A DNA stretch of 64,000 bases from Chloroflexota bacterium (GTDB lineage: Bacteria > Chloroflexota > Chloroflexia > Chloroflexales > Roseiflexaceae), in assembly GCA_013388755.1 (NCBI GenBank), contig JACAEQ010000070.1, positions 1 to 64,000 on the forward strand. The letters run 5' to 3'. The translations under genes and the position numbers were made by a program. Positions within the stretch are counted from its first letter, which is position 1. Each line of letters begins with the position of its first letter. Shown here in pieces: positions 14,804 through 21,560 of the stretch. The notes under the pieces are model-generated. The model was given only the letters and a program-made list of their open reading frames with translations, did not search any database and was not told the DNA's origin.

Positions 14804-15094
14804 CAATACTATTAGGCCGTCGCCCCCACCCCGGCCCGTCCCCGCTGGAGGCGGGAGTCCGGCTCCTCCCCTCAGCAGAGGGCGGTTAGTGCCTATCCGA
14901 AAACCCATGGGCATGCGGTCAGTGCGCGGAGCGCCAGCGACCGCGTGCAGCGAGCGCAGCGTGGCTGAAGCACTCGAGCGGCGTGAGCGGAGATTGCTTC
15001 GCTCGCGCTCGCCATGACAGTGACCATCTGGTGTTCGGACAGGCTCTTAGGCGGGGGGCTGTACGGTGTGTAAAGCCTTATTTGAAAGATACTG
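14804..15094. mobile_element. Miniature element, family 2, copy a (interrupted)
   Basis: The element starts with CAATACT and ends with TTTGAAAGATACTG. Its reverse-orientation match is the intact copy at 21736-21872: both share GC-rich CCCCCACCCCGGCC-type blocks and CCTTATTTGAAAG near one end. It is flanked by ten-base direct repeats GTCTTATGAT (14794-14803) and GTCCTATGAT (15095-15104) with one mismatch, as expected for a target-site duplication. A family 1 element with its own TTA duplication is inserted inside it. No ORF is present, so it would need a transposase supplied in trans. The rest of the gap 14542-15153 shows no gene. Confidence 0.75.
14889..15046 (+). mobile_element. Miniature element, family 1, copy a (158 bp, nested in family 2 copy)
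   Basis: Termini are GTGCCTATCCGAAAACC and, on the other strand, GAGCCTGTCCGAACACC, matching at 14 of 17 bases. TTA lies immediately on both sides (14886-14888 and 15047-15049), while the uninterrupted family 2 copy has a single TTG-containing block at the matching place; this identifies a 3-base target duplication. The interior is GC-rich, without a coding frame. A nearly identical 158-base copy lies inverted at 20342-20499. Confidence 0.82.
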
Positions 15095-15153: not shown

Positions 15154-17307
15154 CTACGATATGGGATGTTCCGCATCGCCGCCGGCAAGATCACGAATGC
15201 GCCGGTCAAATTGCCGCACCAGGTCCATGTCGCCGCACGCGCGCGCGACGCGCCGTGCATCGCGAAGTATTGCGAGGTCGTCGCCACCGTAGTACAGCAG
15301 TCTGTCCACGACCGACAGAATGTGCCGGCGATCATCAGGTTCACCACGTTGCTGATAGCAGTCGATCAGGAGGCGCGCCATGTTCCAGCGCTGCCGGTTC
15401 CATGTTCTTCTGGCGTATTCAATGCTATATACGTTCGAGACAAACTCCGGCATATAGTCGCCCGACAAGATGTCGAACGCCTGCCGTAGCTGCTCGATGG
15501 CGCTTGCGAGCTGGTCCGCCTCGAGATCACGGCGCGCACTGTCGTACAACATGAGCGCCTTGTCGGTATCCAGCATCCACGATTGATCGCGATGCAGGAT
15601 CACCATTGCGCCTTCGATAATCAGCGCCCCGCCCATGCCCCAATCGTGCAGCGTCTGGCGTAGACCGGAGATCAGGTGGTTTGTATCCGTGTCTTCGCTT
15701 TGAGCGCCACGACCTTTGCGATGATCTGCCGCAATCTCCGCCAGGGTGTCGCGCGACACCGGTTCATCAATGCGCACGACCACATACATCAGCATCCCTT
15801 TGAGCATATTGATGCCGATGCGCCGTGACTTCCCGACCGGTTTGCCGTCCTTAGAGATGGTGAAGCTCCCGATCGTGGTAATCCTGACCGGAGCCGTGCG
15901 CGGGGCGACCAGCGGGGAACTTGCCTGGAGGTCCGCCGGGCTATCCTGCTGCGTCGCGGTCGCTGTTTCAGTCTGTGCGCGCTCGATGTACAGCGTCAGG
16001 AGGTATCCGACAAGTTCCAGGTAATACTCCTCAAAGCGCGCCCAGCCGCCAGGCGTCTCACGGTTGCCAAAGAGCAACGCACCACGCTGCACCCGCGCCG
16101 CCGGCAGCGGAAGAACGAAGTCGGTTCCGGCGCGGCCACGTGGATCTCCAGGCATATGCGCCCGGAGATCCGCCATCGTCATCTCGGGCGGCTTCGCGCC
16201 CCAGTACGCCAGGAGTCGCGGCGTATCGCCTTCGAACCAGAACAGCGCAACACGCGAAACACGTATCAACTGCGCCAGATCGCGCAGAAACTCGGCAATC
16301 GCCTGTTCCAGCGGTTTGCTGGCGCCTGCCTGGCGCGTCATGTTGCGCAGGATCCGGCGCAGCAGGCGTATTGAGGGTGCCACGCGCACATAATCGAGCG
16401 CGCCACGCAGTTGATCCAGGCCAAAGTGGGTTGTAATCACCAGCGGCACAAGGAGAACGCCAAGGATGCGCAGATAGGGCACGAGTGCGTCGTTGCGCAT
16501 CACAATGAAGAGCACGATCAGCACGGCCTCATAGACGCCGACGATCGCAAAGCTTGCGAGCCCGCTGACGATATAATCGCGCCCGCCTCCCACATGGCGC
16601 TGTGTGAAGATCAGCGCACCATAGCCGGCAAGCACGATGCCAATGCCGAGCGCGCCGTGGCCGGCCTGGTCGGCGATGGCTGCAATGTCCGGGCACATTC
16701 CGGTACAGGCGCCAGTGAACGGTTCGATCCACTGCACCATCTGCGTCACGACCAGCAAGACACCGCTGCACGCCGCGAGACTTGCTGCCATCAGCAGAAG
16801 CTGTAGCCCGCGCCGCGCATCCGGCACGCGCTCACGCCGATACCGGCGCCAGACAGCAAACCACGCCGTGCCAAGCGTTCCAGGTACATACAGGCCGAAG
16901 AGGAGCAACAACGCGCCCGGCCGTAGCGGCGACTGCGCCATTGCCGCGCTATCGTTCGCGAGCATGCCGGGAACGAAGTGGAAGAACGTGAAACAGGCGG
17001 CAGCAACCAGAAATGCGTTACGAAGCAAACGTGAAGTCGGGGTGAAGCCGTATAGCCCGAGCGTCCAGGCCGGCCAGAGCGCCAGCACGAATGACGTCAC
17101 AGCGAAACGCACATGGGGAAGCGCCAGATGATTCGCCGTGTTCAGGTCTGTGGCCAGCGCCTCAATCAGAAAACGAACACCAAGGATGATGAGCGCCCAG
17201 CGGAACAGGCGTGTGGAACGATGATAGCTCGTGCGACCCGCGAGGTGGAGACCGGTCCAGAAACTAGCGATACCTCCTGCAATTGACACGCATAACGGGA
17301 CGTCCAC
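15154..17307 (-). CDS. Membrane-integrated regulator: N-terminal membrane domain, GAF-like domain, C-terminal winged-helix/BTAD domain
   Basis: The 717-residue product opens with about seven to eight hydrophobic helices (residues 1-290), resembling sensor modules rather than a transporter. Residues ~300-450 have a GAF-like character (AIAEFLRDLAQLIRVSRVALFWF, later FVLPLPAARVQRGALLFG). Residues ~480-600 read VRITTIGSFTISKDGKPV and GKSRRIGINMLKGMLMYVVV, the winged-helix start of SARP/BTAD regulators, and the last ~110 residues are the helical BTAD part (YDSARRDLEADQLASAIEQLRQAFDILSGDYMPEF, described here by its ends). A membrane-bound SARP-like protein could couple an envelope signal to transcription. 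It lies downstream of the T-box-led regulator but is separated by a strong terminator, so it likely has its own promoter in 17308-17460. Confidence 0.7.
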   Translation of the reverse strand: MDVPLCVSIAGGIASFWTGLHLAGRTSYHRSTRLFRWALIILGVRFLIEALATDLNTANHLALPHVRFAVTSFVLALWPAWTLGLYGFTPTSRLLRNAFLVAAACFTFFHFVPGMLANDSAAMAQSPLRPGALLLLFGLYVPGTLGTAWFAVWRRYRRERVPDARRGLQLLLMAASLAACSGVLLVVTQMVQWIEPFTGACTGMCPDIAAIADQAGHGALGIGIVLAGYGALIFTQRHVGGGRDYIVSGLASFAIVGVYEAVLIVLFIVMRNDALVPYLRILGVLLVPLVITTHFGLDQLRGALDYVRVAPSIRLLRRILRNMTRQAGASKPLEQAIAEFLRDLAQLIRVSRVALFWFEGDTPRLLAYWGAKPPEMTMADLRAHMPGDPRGRAGTDFVLPLPAARVQRGALLFGNRETPGGWARFEEYYLELVGYLLTLYIERAQTETATATQQDSPADLQASSPLVAPRTAPVRITTIGSFTISKDGKPVGKSRRIGINMLKGMLMYVVVRIDEPVSRDTLAEIAADHRKGRGAQSEDTDTNHLISGLRQTLHDWGMGGALIIEGAMVILHRDQSWMLDTDKALMLYDSARRDLEADQLASAIEQLRQAFDILSGDYMPEFVSNVYSIEYARRTWNRQRWNMARLLIDCYQQRGEPDDRRHILSVVDRLLYYGGDDLAILRDARRVARACGDMDLVRQFDRRIRDLAGGDAEHPIS

Positions 17308-17464: not shown

Positions 17465-17501
17465 TAAAAAAAGAACAACGCTGCAATGATGCAGCGTTGT
17501 T
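17465..17501 (-). terminator. Intrinsic terminator after the T-box-led regulator
   Basis: AACAACGCTGCA (17474-17485) pairs perfectly with TGCAGCGTTGTT (17490-17501) across a four-base ATGA loop. On the minus strand the stem is followed by a run of seven T (complement of 17465-17472). It lies 41 bases after the stop of the 706-residue regulator and separates it from the membrane regulator gene. Confidence 0.9.
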
Positions 17502-17542: not shown

Positions 17543-19663
17543 TTACACCTGACGCCAGTCGCCGTCCCGGAAGATCCAGATCGCCCGGCTGCTTTCGCGG
17601 GTGCGCTCATAGATCGCATCTATGATCGACGTCAGGCGCACGCGGAGTTCCTCGCGATCGTCGTGCGACACATCATACAGCTCCTGGTACGACAACTCCT
17701 GAAGCGCCGCGCTGATGGTGATCGTCGTGCGCTCGCAACACCCGGCAATCGTCACCGGCAACATCTGCACACGGCTCGCGACGCGCCGGACGCTCGCGAC
17801 GGCCTCGTCGAGCGTGTAACCATCCAGTATCAGTAAGGTGTGGTCATTTTTGAACCAGTATCCGCAAACGCCAGGAACGATCTGAGCCACAGCCTGCTGC
17901 ACGTGGCGCTGTGCCGCAAGGAGAAATGGCTCGTAGCCGCGCTCCTGGCGGGTGTGCGTGTGATCAATATCGAGAACCACCAGCGTAATAAACCGGCGTG
18001 ACAGATGATCTGCGCCGGTACGTGTACTTTCCTCGCCGCCAACCGCCGCGGCAACTCGTTCCCAGATCGCCTCCAGTTGCTGCAAGCCGCGCTCAAAGTC
18101 GGGGCCGTGGAGATCCATACCGTCGAACCAGCGGATATACTCAGCGACATGCGCATGCAGCAATCCATCATGCGTGCGGCGCAGGCGCGTTAACCACCAC
18201 CGGCCAAGCAACTCGCTGAGAATGTTGCCGAATACCAGCGCGACGAATGCCATATCGCTCGACAATTCCCGGGCCGAATGCCGCGATGCCAGGTAAAGCA
18301 CGCCAAACGGATGTGTGTCCCAGTGGGAAAGTAATGGGACGGCAAGCGCCACCTGGCAGCGTTCCTCCTGTGCGGCGAGTACCCGGTCATCGGTAGCCGC
18401 CTCGCGCGTGAAGAATGGTTCGCGCGCCAGAAATGCCTTCCCGCTCAGACCATCGCCCCTTTCGCGCAGGCTAACACGCACCGTCCGGGCGATTTCTTCA
18501 GGATATCCGGCATGCGCCAGTATGGAAAGATAGGCCGGCTGGTAGAGATCGTTCGGCAACAACAGGCATGCCATGCTGTCACCGGCTTGCGCGCCGAAGA
18601 TCAGGCTGCGCACCCGCTGCATCAGGCGTGTCAGCGCTTCACGCGTATGCGCCAGCCGGTAGCCATCCGAGCGGTAACGATATCCGTGGGCCTTCGTCAC
18701 GGCGCGAAACTCCGGGAAAATGGCATGGCACATGCCGATCATCCAGTCAAGCAGGTGCTTGCGCGCCGGCACCCGAATATCGAGCCGCGGCGGCAATCCA
18801 TCGACCGGCGCCGCCTGAACCATGAAGACAACCGTCAGGCCAGACTCGTCAGACGGGCGATACGAGCAGAACTGCGCCGCTTCCGGCACCGGCACGTTCC
18901 ACGGTTCACGGCTGTAAAACAACACGATACTGCTGTCATCGTCCGGCGCCAACCCCTCACCGGTGCCCGGTATGCGCTCGCCAAGGACTGCGGCCCGGTC
19001 GAGCGCAACGAGCATATCCTGCGGATATTCTGCGAGTGATTCCCCCGCTGCCTGCACGGCCGCCGCAGACGATGTGTCAATCACCTTCTCGGCCACAAAC
19101 ATGGCGATAATACGTGCCGAAGCAAACTGCTCGTTCAATTCGCGTTGTGCCGCAAAAATGACCTGGCTGGCAAGCCGGGAAAGGAGAAATCCGTCGGTAA
19201 TGGCATCCCCTTCGCGCTGCAGCACATCTGCGATGCTCCGGAATCCGCCACGATCGATCCGGTGCGCATGTTGCCGGACCATTTCGGCCGCCTGTGCCGG
19301 CCGCTGACCTTGCCGGAGGAGTTCAGCAAACACCGCCAGGCGTCGCAGGTCAGCAAGGGAGTAGTAGCGGGTTGCTCCAGGGGGCAGGGCAGGATCGCGT
19401 TCAAGGCCATGCAACTCTTCAAAATAGCGGATCTGGGTGTCTTTCAGGCCGACGAGCTCGGTCACGCGGCCAATACCGATCGTCAGGTGATCGCGCCACT
19501 GGTCAACTCCAGGCAGGACGCGCTCCAGCAATTCCGAGAACTCACGCTCGCGGCATACCTGGTCGTCGGGCGACACTTTGAGGCCGTTGCGCTGCCCCCG
19601 GCTGTCGTGGCCGTTGCCCGCACGCACATCGTAATCGGCAACAGGCGCTGGCAGTGTGGCCAT
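17543..19663 (-). CDS. Multidomain regulator: MerR-type HTH, GAF-like region, degenerate GGDEF-like domain
   Basis: The 706-residue product has a MerR-type DNA-binding region at ~60-125: TIGIGRVTELVGLKDTQIRY followed by FEELHGLERD and ATRYYSLADLRRLAVF match the helix-turn-helix, wing and second helix. Residues ~230-330 are of unassigned fold, ~350-510 have GAF-like traits, and ~560-690 resemble a GGDEF domain (VVLDIDHTHT, then YWFKNDHTLLIL where GGDEF is expected), so catalytic residues are missing. The start at 19663 has AAAGGGG before it. Directly upstream lies a T-box leader, implying induction by uncharged tRNA. The role is probably a starvation-linked transcription regulator; the targets are unknown. 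Confidence 0.72.
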   Translation of the reverse strand: MATLPAPVADYDVRAGNGHDSRGQRNGLKVSPDDQVCREREFSELLERVLPGVDQWRDHLTIGIGRVTELVGLKDTQIRYFEELHGLERDPALPPGATRYYSLADLRRLAVFAELLRQGQRPAQAAEMVRQHAHRIDRGGFRSIADVLQREGDAITDGFLLSRLASQVIFAAQRELNEQFASARIIAMFVAEKVIDTSSAAAVQAAGESLAEYPQDMLVALDRAAVLGERIPGTGEGLAPDDDSSIVLFYSREPWNVPVPEAAQFCSYRPSDESGLTVVFMVQAAPVDGLPPRLDIRVPARKHLLDWMIGMCHAIFPEFRAVTKAHGYRYRSDGYRLAHTREALTRLMQRVRSLIFGAQAGDSMACLLLPNDLYQPAYLSILAHAGYPEEIARTVRVSLRERGDGLSGKAFLAREPFFTREAATDDRVLAAQEERCQVALAVPLLSHWDTHPFGVLYLASRHSARELSSDMAFVALVFGNILSELLGRWWLTRLRRTHDGLLHAHVAEYIRWFDGMDLHGPDFERGLQQLEAIWERVAAAVGGEESTRTGADHLSRRFITLVVLDIDHTHTRQERGYEPFLLAAQRHVQQAVAQIVPGVCGYWFKNDHTLLILDGYTLDEAVASVRRVASRVQMLPVTIAGCCERTTITISAALQELSYQELYDVSHDDREELRVRLTSIIDAIYERTRESSRAIWIFRDGDWRQV

Positions 19664-19680
19664 CGGTTCCCCTTTCTCAA

Positions 19681-19945
19681 GCAAGGAGCCCGTCCTGGCA
19701 CGGTCAAGGACCACGCCGGGACGGGCTGACCACAACCCGCGGTACCACCCCGCTTGGCAAAGCGTGCTGAAGCTCTGCCCACTCACGACGCTTAACGCGC
19801 GTTCACGGCCGGGTTCACCCTCGGCTGAGGTTTTCCCCGGCAGGCGTCACAGCGGAAACAGGCGCACCACACTCCCCGGCTTCCACCATCCCGGGGTCGC
19901 TGATGCAGGCTCTCGCCGATATTCTGTGACGTTTCCCCTTCACTT
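19681..19945 (-). promoter_or_regulatory. T-box riboswitch leader
   Basis: Read on the minus strand, GGGTGGTACCGCG (19738-19750) is the hallmark T-box sequence. Upstream are CGTTA (19793-19797, F-box), a Stem I region with the distal-loop-like GATGGTGGAAGCCGGGG, and base-helix strands GTCACAG (19924-19930) and CTGTGAC (19846-19852). The bulge UGGU predicts a tRNA with discriminator base A. GCGGGTT (19734-19740) can pair with AGCCCGT (19721-19727) to form the antiterminator, which excludes the hairpin at 19687-19727. The specifier codon could not be fixed; the candidate loop TGTTTCCG allows Phe or Val among A-discriminator tRNAs. The regulated gene is the 706-residue MerR-type protein. The upstream stretch 19946-20341 shows no gene. 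Confidence 0.9.
19687..19727 (-). terminator. Terminator/attenuator hairpin of the T-box leader
   Basis: On the minus strand AGCCCGTCC (19719-19727) pairs with GGACGGGCT (19687-19695), and the interior GGCGTGGTC/GACCGTGCC extends the helix with two wobble pairs. It is mutually exclusive with the antiterminator. No T-run follows; the sequence continues CCTTGCTTGAG into the ribosome binding site of the regulator. Whether it stops transcription or affects translation is unresolved. Confidence 0.7.
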
Positions 19946-20341
19946 GCCGGCGCGCCACACCATACGGTGGCGACATGACATCAACATCCGGCACACAATG
20001 GGTCGAAAAGTACACTATCTCTAGACGGAGTATACACCCCCGGCATGGCGCAGTCAATATCATCTCGAAGAACGGCGCGCAAACAATCGCCACTTCGATA
20101 GTATGTCGCAATCCGCGTGAATTGCCGTCACCGGTCGCGGTCGTCACGATCGGGAGTTCGGGGGATGCCCCCGCAATGAACCATCGGCGACGAGTCGGGA
20201 CGCAGCGTGCTGTGTCTACGTCAGCGCCATGCGACATCGAACCGCCGACGCACAAACGGCATGGTTCCCCCAGGTGTGAACAAATACCCATCGAGACGCC
20301 CCGGCGAGGCATCGCAGGTATCCGCCGGGGCGGCTCCATTA

Positions 20342-20499
20342 GAGCCTGTCCGAACACCAGATGGTCACTGGCATGGCGAGCGCGAGCGAAGCAATCTCCT
20401 CGCGCGCCGCTCGAGTGCTTCAGCCACGCTGCGCTCGCTGCACGCGGTCGCTGGCGCTCCGCGCACTGACCGCATGCCCATGGGTTTTCGGATAGGTAC
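20342..20499 (-). mobile_element. Miniature element, family 1, copy b (158 bp, inverted)
   Basis: This is the same length as copy a and nearly identical to it in the opposite orientation, with ends GAGCCTGTCCGAACACC and (other strand) GTACCTATCCGAAAACC. TTA precedes it at 20339-20341; GTA follows, so the duplication is imperfect on that side. It lies 17 bases from the stop of the cyanophycinase-like gene. No ORF. Confidence 0.78.
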
Positions 20500-20516: not shown

Positions 20517-21560
20517 TTATGCCGGTTCGACAACCGGCCCATCAGGGGTGTCACGCACCTGCCAGCCGCGTTCAGCAATCGCGCGACGCAGCATATCTGC
20601 AACCGCCCAATCACGCCGTTCGCGCGCTTCCTGGCGATTCAACACCAACGCATGGATGTCGTCAGGCACGGAAGAGGGCACTTTTGCCGAAGAGAGACTT
20701 TCCATCTCAGCCCACACCTCCGGCGGAATACCGTCGGCAGGTTCGGGCAGGCGGAACGGGCCCAGCGCCGCGAGCGGGAATATGGTCTTGCGGGCGAAAC
20801 GCTCCTCTGTGGCTTCGTGTATTATCGTGACGCCACCCCTGCCCAGTACATGCCCCGTGCCAGTGGCAAGATCGATCAGCAACGCCGTATGCTCGTCAAT
20901 GCCGACGATTGTGAGCTCTGAAGGAAGCATTGTACGCAGCCGGGCAAAACGTTCGGCTCCCATATAGCAATGACTGGTATCCAGTTCCGCGCCACCTTCT
21001 GAATTGTTCCAATGCGGCACAATCACCAGAGCCAGACCAAAAGCGCCGAAGAAGTCAAGCCCTGCATGCCAGTGGAGTTCGTCGCCGACTTTGTAAATCT
21101 CATATACCGGCAATGCCACCCGGCCAAACGCAATCGTGGCAGCGCTGGCGGTAACAATTGCGGCGCCACGACGGTGGCGCGCCTTTACCCGATGCCATGC
21201 CAGGCTATCGGAAAGCTGCCTGACAGTGTAGGTCGGGCTACCTGGCCCAAGAAAGATAATGTCGGCCTCACGCAACGCCGCCGTGGTCTCAGGCGCGTCG
21301 GGGCTTGCCGGCGTACCACGTGCCCGCGCCGGCAGAACATCAATATGCGGCTGGCTGTTCTGCAGCCGAATTCGCAAATGATCGGCGACTTTACCGGCAA
21401 CCAGCGCCGAGTTCGGCTGAAATCCCGCCGGCGTTTCGAGTACCGCAATTCGCAGCGGCACCGCATAACGTGCGGCGATCGCATCATAGACGACCCCACT
21501 GGCCGGCGCCGTCTCGCCTGAACCAAGCAACGCTATGAGACCAGGAGCAGACGCAGTCAT
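20517..21560 (-). CDS. Cyanophycinase-like (peptidase S51 fold) protein with CysRS-type C-terminal tail
   Basis: The 347-residue product begins GLIALLGSGETAPASG and contains ADIIFLGPGSPTYTVRQLSD, VTASAATIAFG at the nucleophile-elbow position and VGIDEHTALLIDL, all features of the S51/cyanophycinase group (class I glutamine-amidotransferase-like fold). The usual GTSAGA elbow is altered to TASAAT but keeps Ser. After ~residue 295 a separate segment reads ALVLNRQEARERRDWAVADM then RAIAERGWQVRDTPDGPV, which closely resembles the C-terminal tRNA-anticodon-proximal tail of cysteinyl-tRNA synthetase. The role of this tail here is unknown; substrate could be a peptide. The gene is monocistronic and its promoter region abuts miniature element 2b. 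Confidence 0.75.
   Translation of the reverse strand: MTASAPGLIALLGSGETAPASGVVYDAIAARYAVPLRIAVLETPAGFQPNSALVAGKVADHLRIRLQNSQPHIDVLPARARGTPASPDAPETTAALREADIIFLGPGSPTYTVRQLSDSLAWHRVKARHRRGAAIVTASAATIAFGRVALPVYEIYKVGDELHWHAGLDFFGAFGLALVIVPHWNNSEGGAELDTSHCYMGAERFARLRTMLPSELTIVGIDEHTALLIDLATGTGHVLGRGGVTIIHEATEERFARKTIFPLAALGPFRLPEPADGIPPEVWAEMESLSSAKVPSSVPDDIHALVLNRQEARERRDWAVADMLRRAIAERGWQVRDTPDGPVVEPA

Follow-up and report, generated by a model that had tools for sequence, protein, structure and literature searches.

A conserved T-box leader before a MerR/GAF/GGDEF-like regulator in Roseiflexus and its relatives, with likely control of translation

Introduction

T-box leaders normally switch on amino-acid genes once tRNAs run short of amino acid, and each is assumed to recognize a single codon and to control, by feedback, the genes for the corresponding amino acid. 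Of 897 T-boxes surveyed, 8% were found before genes whose function was unknown or whose tie to amino-acid metabolism was unclear, and the specifier could be aligned in almost all orthologous T-box groups (PMC2494555). A regulatory protein has a precedent as a target in the anti-TRAP gene rtpA/yczA of Bacillus subtilis, which is under T-box control (PMC11255114), and translational T-boxes, mostly with a short Stem I, are known in Actinobacteria (PMC1262725, PMC7583486).

Here we describe a T-box leader on the minus strand of a 64,000-nt stretch of Chloroflexota DNA (the window) which precedes the gene of a large regulator, and which is real, conserved, and unusual in its target, its decoding region and its probable output. 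A sequence-only reading of the window had proposed that the leader controls a regulator instead of an amino-acid gene; the target is indeed unusual, although anti-TRAP anticipates it in kind. Our literature search, which was thin on subscription journals, two main T-box surveys included, found no publication on this leader.

Results

The match to Rfam family RF00230 that had been proposed as a check extends over 19935-19714 of the minus strand and covers all model positions 1-219 (E 2.5e-8), but at 43.8 bits it stays below the gathering score of 93 bits. Seven of the eight other T-boxes of the 5.08-Mb window genome, which precede ileS, pheS, thrS, serS, glyS, proS and a trpB-like gene, likewise fall below this score, so the curated cut-off is uninformative in this lineage. 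The leader is a T-box far beyond a chance match, as it recurs before the orthologue of the regulator in six other genomes and shows covariation.

Every element named from the sequence alone (the T-box sequence GGGTGGTACCGCG, the F-box, the base of Stem I, the antiterminator and the hairpin) lies on the minus strand where it had been placed. Stem I (19846-19930), within the RF00230 match and with two-sided changes in its helices, is closed by GTCACAG (19930-19924) and CTGTGAC (19852-19846), and conservation marks two elbow-binding strands in its apical part (19878-19902): CAGCGAC (19902-19896), identical in seven of seven leaders, and TGGTGGAAGCC (19888-19878), the GGUG strand, invariant at 8 of 11 positions. 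Stem II (GCCGGG...CCCGGC, 19808-19841) is paired in 100% of alignment cells and has two pairs changed on both sides; the F-box CGTTA (19793-19797), aligned to the Rfam consensus CGUUA, is nearly invariant; and Stem III (GGCAGAG...CTTTGCC, 19756-19779) has three pairs changed on both sides across the leaders. The T-box and antiterminator occupy 19718-19751, with GGGTGGTACCGCG at 19750-19738 and the bulge UGGU at 19747-19744, and the T-box is invariant at 14 of 16 positions in the seven leaders. In the antiterminator helix GCGGGTT (19740-19734) pairs with AGCCCGT (19727-19721) around the loop GTGGTC, and UGUGGUCA (19727-19734) forms part of the antiterminator loop. A competing hairpin, AGCCCGTCCCGGCGTGGTC with GACCGTGCCAGGACGGGCT (19687-19727), is exclusive with the antiterminator; it is paired in 99.2% of cells and is predicted with a probability of 0.48-1.0.

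In an alignment of eight leaders the canonical fold (Stems I, II and III plus the antiterminator) is paired in 91.8% of cells and carries 14 pairs changed on both sides against a shuffle mean of 5.8, a count that none of 500 shuffles reached. Kinship of the leader sequences inflates the shuffle test, for this fold and for the OFF structure described below, and a control in which the pairing partners were slid along the alignment, which left 34-46% of cells paired, therefore matters as much. By eye there also seems to be an extra stem 5' of Stem I, formed by GATGCGCC...GGCGCATC in the Roseiflexus leaders (about 1138-1212 in L014, and in relatives), by AATGCGCC...GGCGCATT in G065 and by TGCCGG...CCGGCA at about 19995-19931 of the window.

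The leader is preceded by a sigma-70-type promoter, TTGACT-17-TATACT (20029-20057, minus strand), with 10 of 12 consensus matches, and transcription would start near 20022; TTGAC[AT]-17-TATACT is found upstream in all eight genomes that have the leader or a remnant of it. The regulator gene (17543-19663, minus strand) starts with an ATG at 19663, exactly 23 bases beyond the end of the hairpin at 19687, and encodes 706 residues with a MerR-type helix-turn-helix (Pfam MerR_1, residues 64-131), all as first read from the sequence, and with a GAF domain (Pfam, residues 341-465). Its C-terminal domain is GGDEF-like, lacks the GGDEF motif and gives a weak match to SiaD. The best Foldseek matches, obtained with a structure model of moderate confidence (mean pLDDT 72), are diguanylate cyclases and GAF domains, and the C-terminal region thus appears to resemble a diguanylate cyclase fold with a degenerate GGDEF. 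An intrinsic terminator directly follows the gene (17474-17501, minus strand; a 12-bp stem, then CTTTTTTTAC with seven Ts), and with a promoter of its own and so strong a terminator just 3' of the regulator, the transcript in this genome probably carries the regulator alone. The conserved promoter before the leader and the terminator after the gene bear out the assignment of the leader to the regulator transcript and rule out a mis-assigned one.

The downstream neighbor (membrane/BTAD-like, 15154-17307) adjoins the regulator in almost every relative examined, whether a T-box is present or not. Elsewhere in the window, a 347-aa protein (20517-21560, minus strand) gives a weak S51-like peptidase match, and its C-terminal domain matches PF23493, the anticodon-binding domain of cysteinyl-tRNA ligase (E 4e-8); a dispersed repeat of ~150 bp, with about 40 copies in the genome at 90-97% identity, occurs at 14898-15047 (minus strand) and 20335-20490 (plus strand).

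The regulator is present in 14 of the 158 genomes of the class, all of them in the same order, and a scan of named genomes found it only in Roseiflexus MAGs. The T-box leader precedes it in the window genome, in five genomes of the Roseiflexus group and in the divergent genome G063; the six relatives, which the sequence-only reading had asked to be checked, carry the same leader before the orthologue, and none has a synthetase gene there instead. A further genome, G067, has a decayed copy in which the T-box is changed to GGUGGUGCUGCAGC and the hairpin and the start pairing are intact. No T-box was found in the upstream sequence examined for the sister-family orthologues. A firm clade (100/100) in the protein tree unites the window with the Roseiflexus group; G063 and the T-box-less G020 are placed beside it, not firmly, and the history of the leader may equally be an ancestral gain with one loss or a later gain or transfer. 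That the regulator was recently inserted behind a synthetase leader is ruled out, since the relatives share the order of leader and gene with syntenic flanks. Across the class, a covariance model of the 3' domain scores strongly (100-149 bits) only with the eight known leaders; no other strong platform of this kind was found: the remaining hits score no higher than 37 bits, and most of those read precede valS, ileS, leuA or proS.

The mutually exclusive antiterminator and hairpin first read from the sequence are present, but the hairpin has no good U-run and folding favors control at the start of translation. Behind the hairpin the tail reads CUCCUUGCUU in the window and UUCCUURCYU in Roseiflexus, and the U-tract scores of the regulator leaders are 1.8-3.5 (window 2.3, G063 1.8, Roseiflexus 3.4-3.5) as against about 5-5.8 in most control T-boxes. 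In place of a U-run, CUCCUU (19688-19683) is predicted to pair with the Shine-Dalgarno sequence AAAGGGG (19675-19669), a helix (19669-19688, minus strand) paired in 87.5% of cells. In folds of the 3' domain the UGUGGUCA segment of the antiterminator loop pairs with UG[AG]CCAC[AG] across the start codon (UGGCCACA in the window, 19655-19662, minus strand), where the only variable positions across seven leaders are purines opposite U, and this predicted helix encloses both the hairpin and the short helix over the Shine-Dalgarno sequence. Its probability is 0.76-0.97 in seven leaders as against 0.18-0.51 with shuffled coding starts; the fraction of shuffles as high is 0-0.055 per leader, modest for each one, and the leaders are related. 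The first nine bases of the coding sequence are conserved at six positions, the next nine at none. The OFF structure as a whole (hairpin, Shine-Dalgarno helix and start-codon helix) is paired in 96.3% of cells with four pairs changed on both sides (3/500 shuffles as high), and the pairing is predicted in all of the close leaders; G063 has a different 8-bp pairing slightly downstream rather than the UGUGGUCA-start register. Because UGUGGUCA lies within the antiterminator loop, the antiterminator and the start-codon helix should be mutually exclusive. In constrained ON folds the Shine-Dalgarno sequence is still mostly paired, a point against the translational model, and its release through an alternative ON hairpin, AGGA/UCCU, was set aside as weak and unconserved.

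Taken together, the lack of a proper U-run and the predicted pairing over the start codon indicate that control is probably exerted at the level of translation, and on these folding models we consider translational control of the regulator likely. The leader might instead be an ordinary transcription-attenuating T-box with a weak terminator, in which the hairpin and UUCCUURCUU stop transcription, perhaps aided by Nus factors, and the start pairing is incidental. The canonical arrangement of hairpin and antiterminator is what one would expect of such a leader, and the U-tract scores of the Roseiflexus leaders overlap those of three control T-boxes (two pheS and one trpB-like, 3.0-3.5); however, the tails of the window and of G063 score only 2.3 and 1.8 where six or seven Ts are usual for the other T-boxes of these genomes, and in seven leaders the start helix, always in one register, is more probable than shuffling would lead one to expect, so that we regard attenuation as unlikely, if still deserving of weight. 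A U-run is also missing from other T-boxes of the class, such as the second member of a tandem pair that precedes an ileS-like gene, and leaders of leuA whose tail reads CCGCUUCGAUUUC (examples are L181 in G087, L183 in G115 and L195 in G116), and T-boxes without a U-run may be commoner in this phylum.

The decoding region, which is eroding, is the other unusual part. Of the leader segments compared, the 3' side of the specifier loop, TGTTTCCG (19853-19860, minus strand), is the least conserved: 2 of its 10 positions are invariant among six leaders and none among seven. The loop E motif (AGUA / GAA), present in most control T-boxes, was looked for in the regulator leaders and is absent. By a rule taken from the control T-boxes (triplet, one base, then helix), the triplets are CCG in G066, G068 and G069, CCC in G063, UCG in the RS-1 type, CUG in G065 and UCC in the window (19856-19854; the alternative register gives CCG, 19855-19853), and with one G-U tolerated every one of them could be read by tRNA-Pro anticodons. 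The bulge is UGGU in all intact leaders, which fits the discriminator-A tRNA predicted from it at the outset: the discriminator is A in tRNA-Pro (all three of the window genome), Phe, Ala and Leu. Bulge and triplets together suggest tRNA-Pro, and the best reading, made over few independent lineages and with one choice of register, is that this tRNA would be sensed with loose decoding. With the specifier itself unconserved and loop E missing, sensing of a single amino acid is a prediction, for which proline fits best. The UCC of the window is a serine codon, which counts against tRNA-Pro; a serine reading is rejected, however, as the four tRNA-Ser of the window genome have discriminator G and its serS T-box uses UGGC. 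Readings as Phe, Ala or Arg each fit single leaders only.

Among other T-boxes of these genomes, those before the trpB-like gene (L082, L087, L117, L123, L132) have the specifier UGG and the bulge UGGC, as expected for tRNA-Trp. The leuS, serS and thrS T-boxes of the window genome (L001, L085, L086) first precede another gene (methyltransferase-like, NUDIX-like or for a small membrane protein), with the synthetase next.

A more radical view of the variable specifier is that the T-box no longer reads the anticodon at all, the elbow and ACCA contacts being sufficient, so that uncharged tRNA in general (with discriminator A, perhaps G), and with it a shortage of amino acids overall, would be reported to the translation of a broad regulator, again with the antiterminator loop hiding the start codon. 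This would suit a leader that hardly varies in its elbow strand, F-box and T-box, lacks loop E and is least conserved in the specifier strand, in genomes where the control specifiers stay constant (ileS AUC, pheS UUC, thrS ACC, serS UCC, trpB-like UGG). Nevertheless, all triplets are compatible with tRNA-Pro given one G-U, and the independent lineages are few; we think codon-independent sensing, and the general relay to translation that it would imply, distinctly improbable. Least probable of all, and in our view very doubtful, is a decaying T-box that has lost tRNA sensing and persists as a constitutive translation-damping structure, as the variable specifier, the missing loop E and the mutated T-box of G067 beside its intact hairpin and start pairing might suggest, for seven genomes, the divergent G063 included, show strong constraint on the T-box, elbow strand and F-box, and Stems I-III carry compensatory changes.

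Discussion

The reading that we favor, and whose chances we would put at about even, is that the regulator mRNA carries a working T-box riboswitch of its own, which senses a discriminator-A tRNA and hides the start codon in its OFF state. An uncharged tRNA of this kind, with tRNA-Pro under loose decoding as the best candidate, would dock on the Stem I elbow motif, and its free ACCA end would pair with UGGU and stabilize the antiterminator, which would retain UGUGGUCA in its loop. In the absence of uncharged tRNA, the 19-bp hairpin would form and free UGUGGUCA, whose pairing with the start-codon region would restrain translation of the MerR/GAF/GGDEF-like regulator. The expected sign of the switch is thus that amino-acid starvation would give more regulator. 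The analysis establishes the T-box itself, its conserved association with this gene, the competing pairings and the missing U-run; tRNA identity, tRNA binding, the level of control and its sign are what we infer.

With a T-box RNA kept across genera before a regulator, the signal would fan out to the targets of that regulator. The leader also offers a natural test of how T-box specificity is shared between the codon on one side and the elbow and tRNA end on the other. Finally, if the output is the hiding of a start codon, searches trimmed to the U run, as in TBDB (PMC7778990), would tend to miss such leaders.

It is instructive to set the leader beside the systems that it most resembles. Like the T-box of the anti-TRAP gene rtpA/yczA (PMC11255114), it would control a regulatory protein and not an enzyme, transporter or synthetase, but anti-TRAP, a small zinc protein, is linked to tryptophan by way of tRNA-Trp, whereas the protein here is large and MerR/GAF/GGDEF-like. 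With the translational T-boxes of actinobacterial ileS (PMC1262725; PMC7583486) it shares the absence of a terminator U-run and an OFF state for which pairing of the initiation region is predicted; those leaders, however, hide the Shine-Dalgarno sequence in a sequestrator and mostly have a short Stem I without the elbow motif, while the regulator leader has a long Stem I and an antiterminator loop predicted to pair with the start codon. The proS T-boxes of the same family have the same UGGU bulge, with the proline codon CCC as specifier, and differ in the GAA retained ahead of the triplet, in the U-run at their end and in the gene that follows, prolyl-tRNA synthetase. Measured against RF00230 itself, the leader has the Stem I with its elbow motif, Stem II, F-box, Stem III, UGGN T-box, and antiterminator with competing hairpin, and it departs from the family in lacking loop E, a conserved specifier and a U-run, and in having a regulator as its target.
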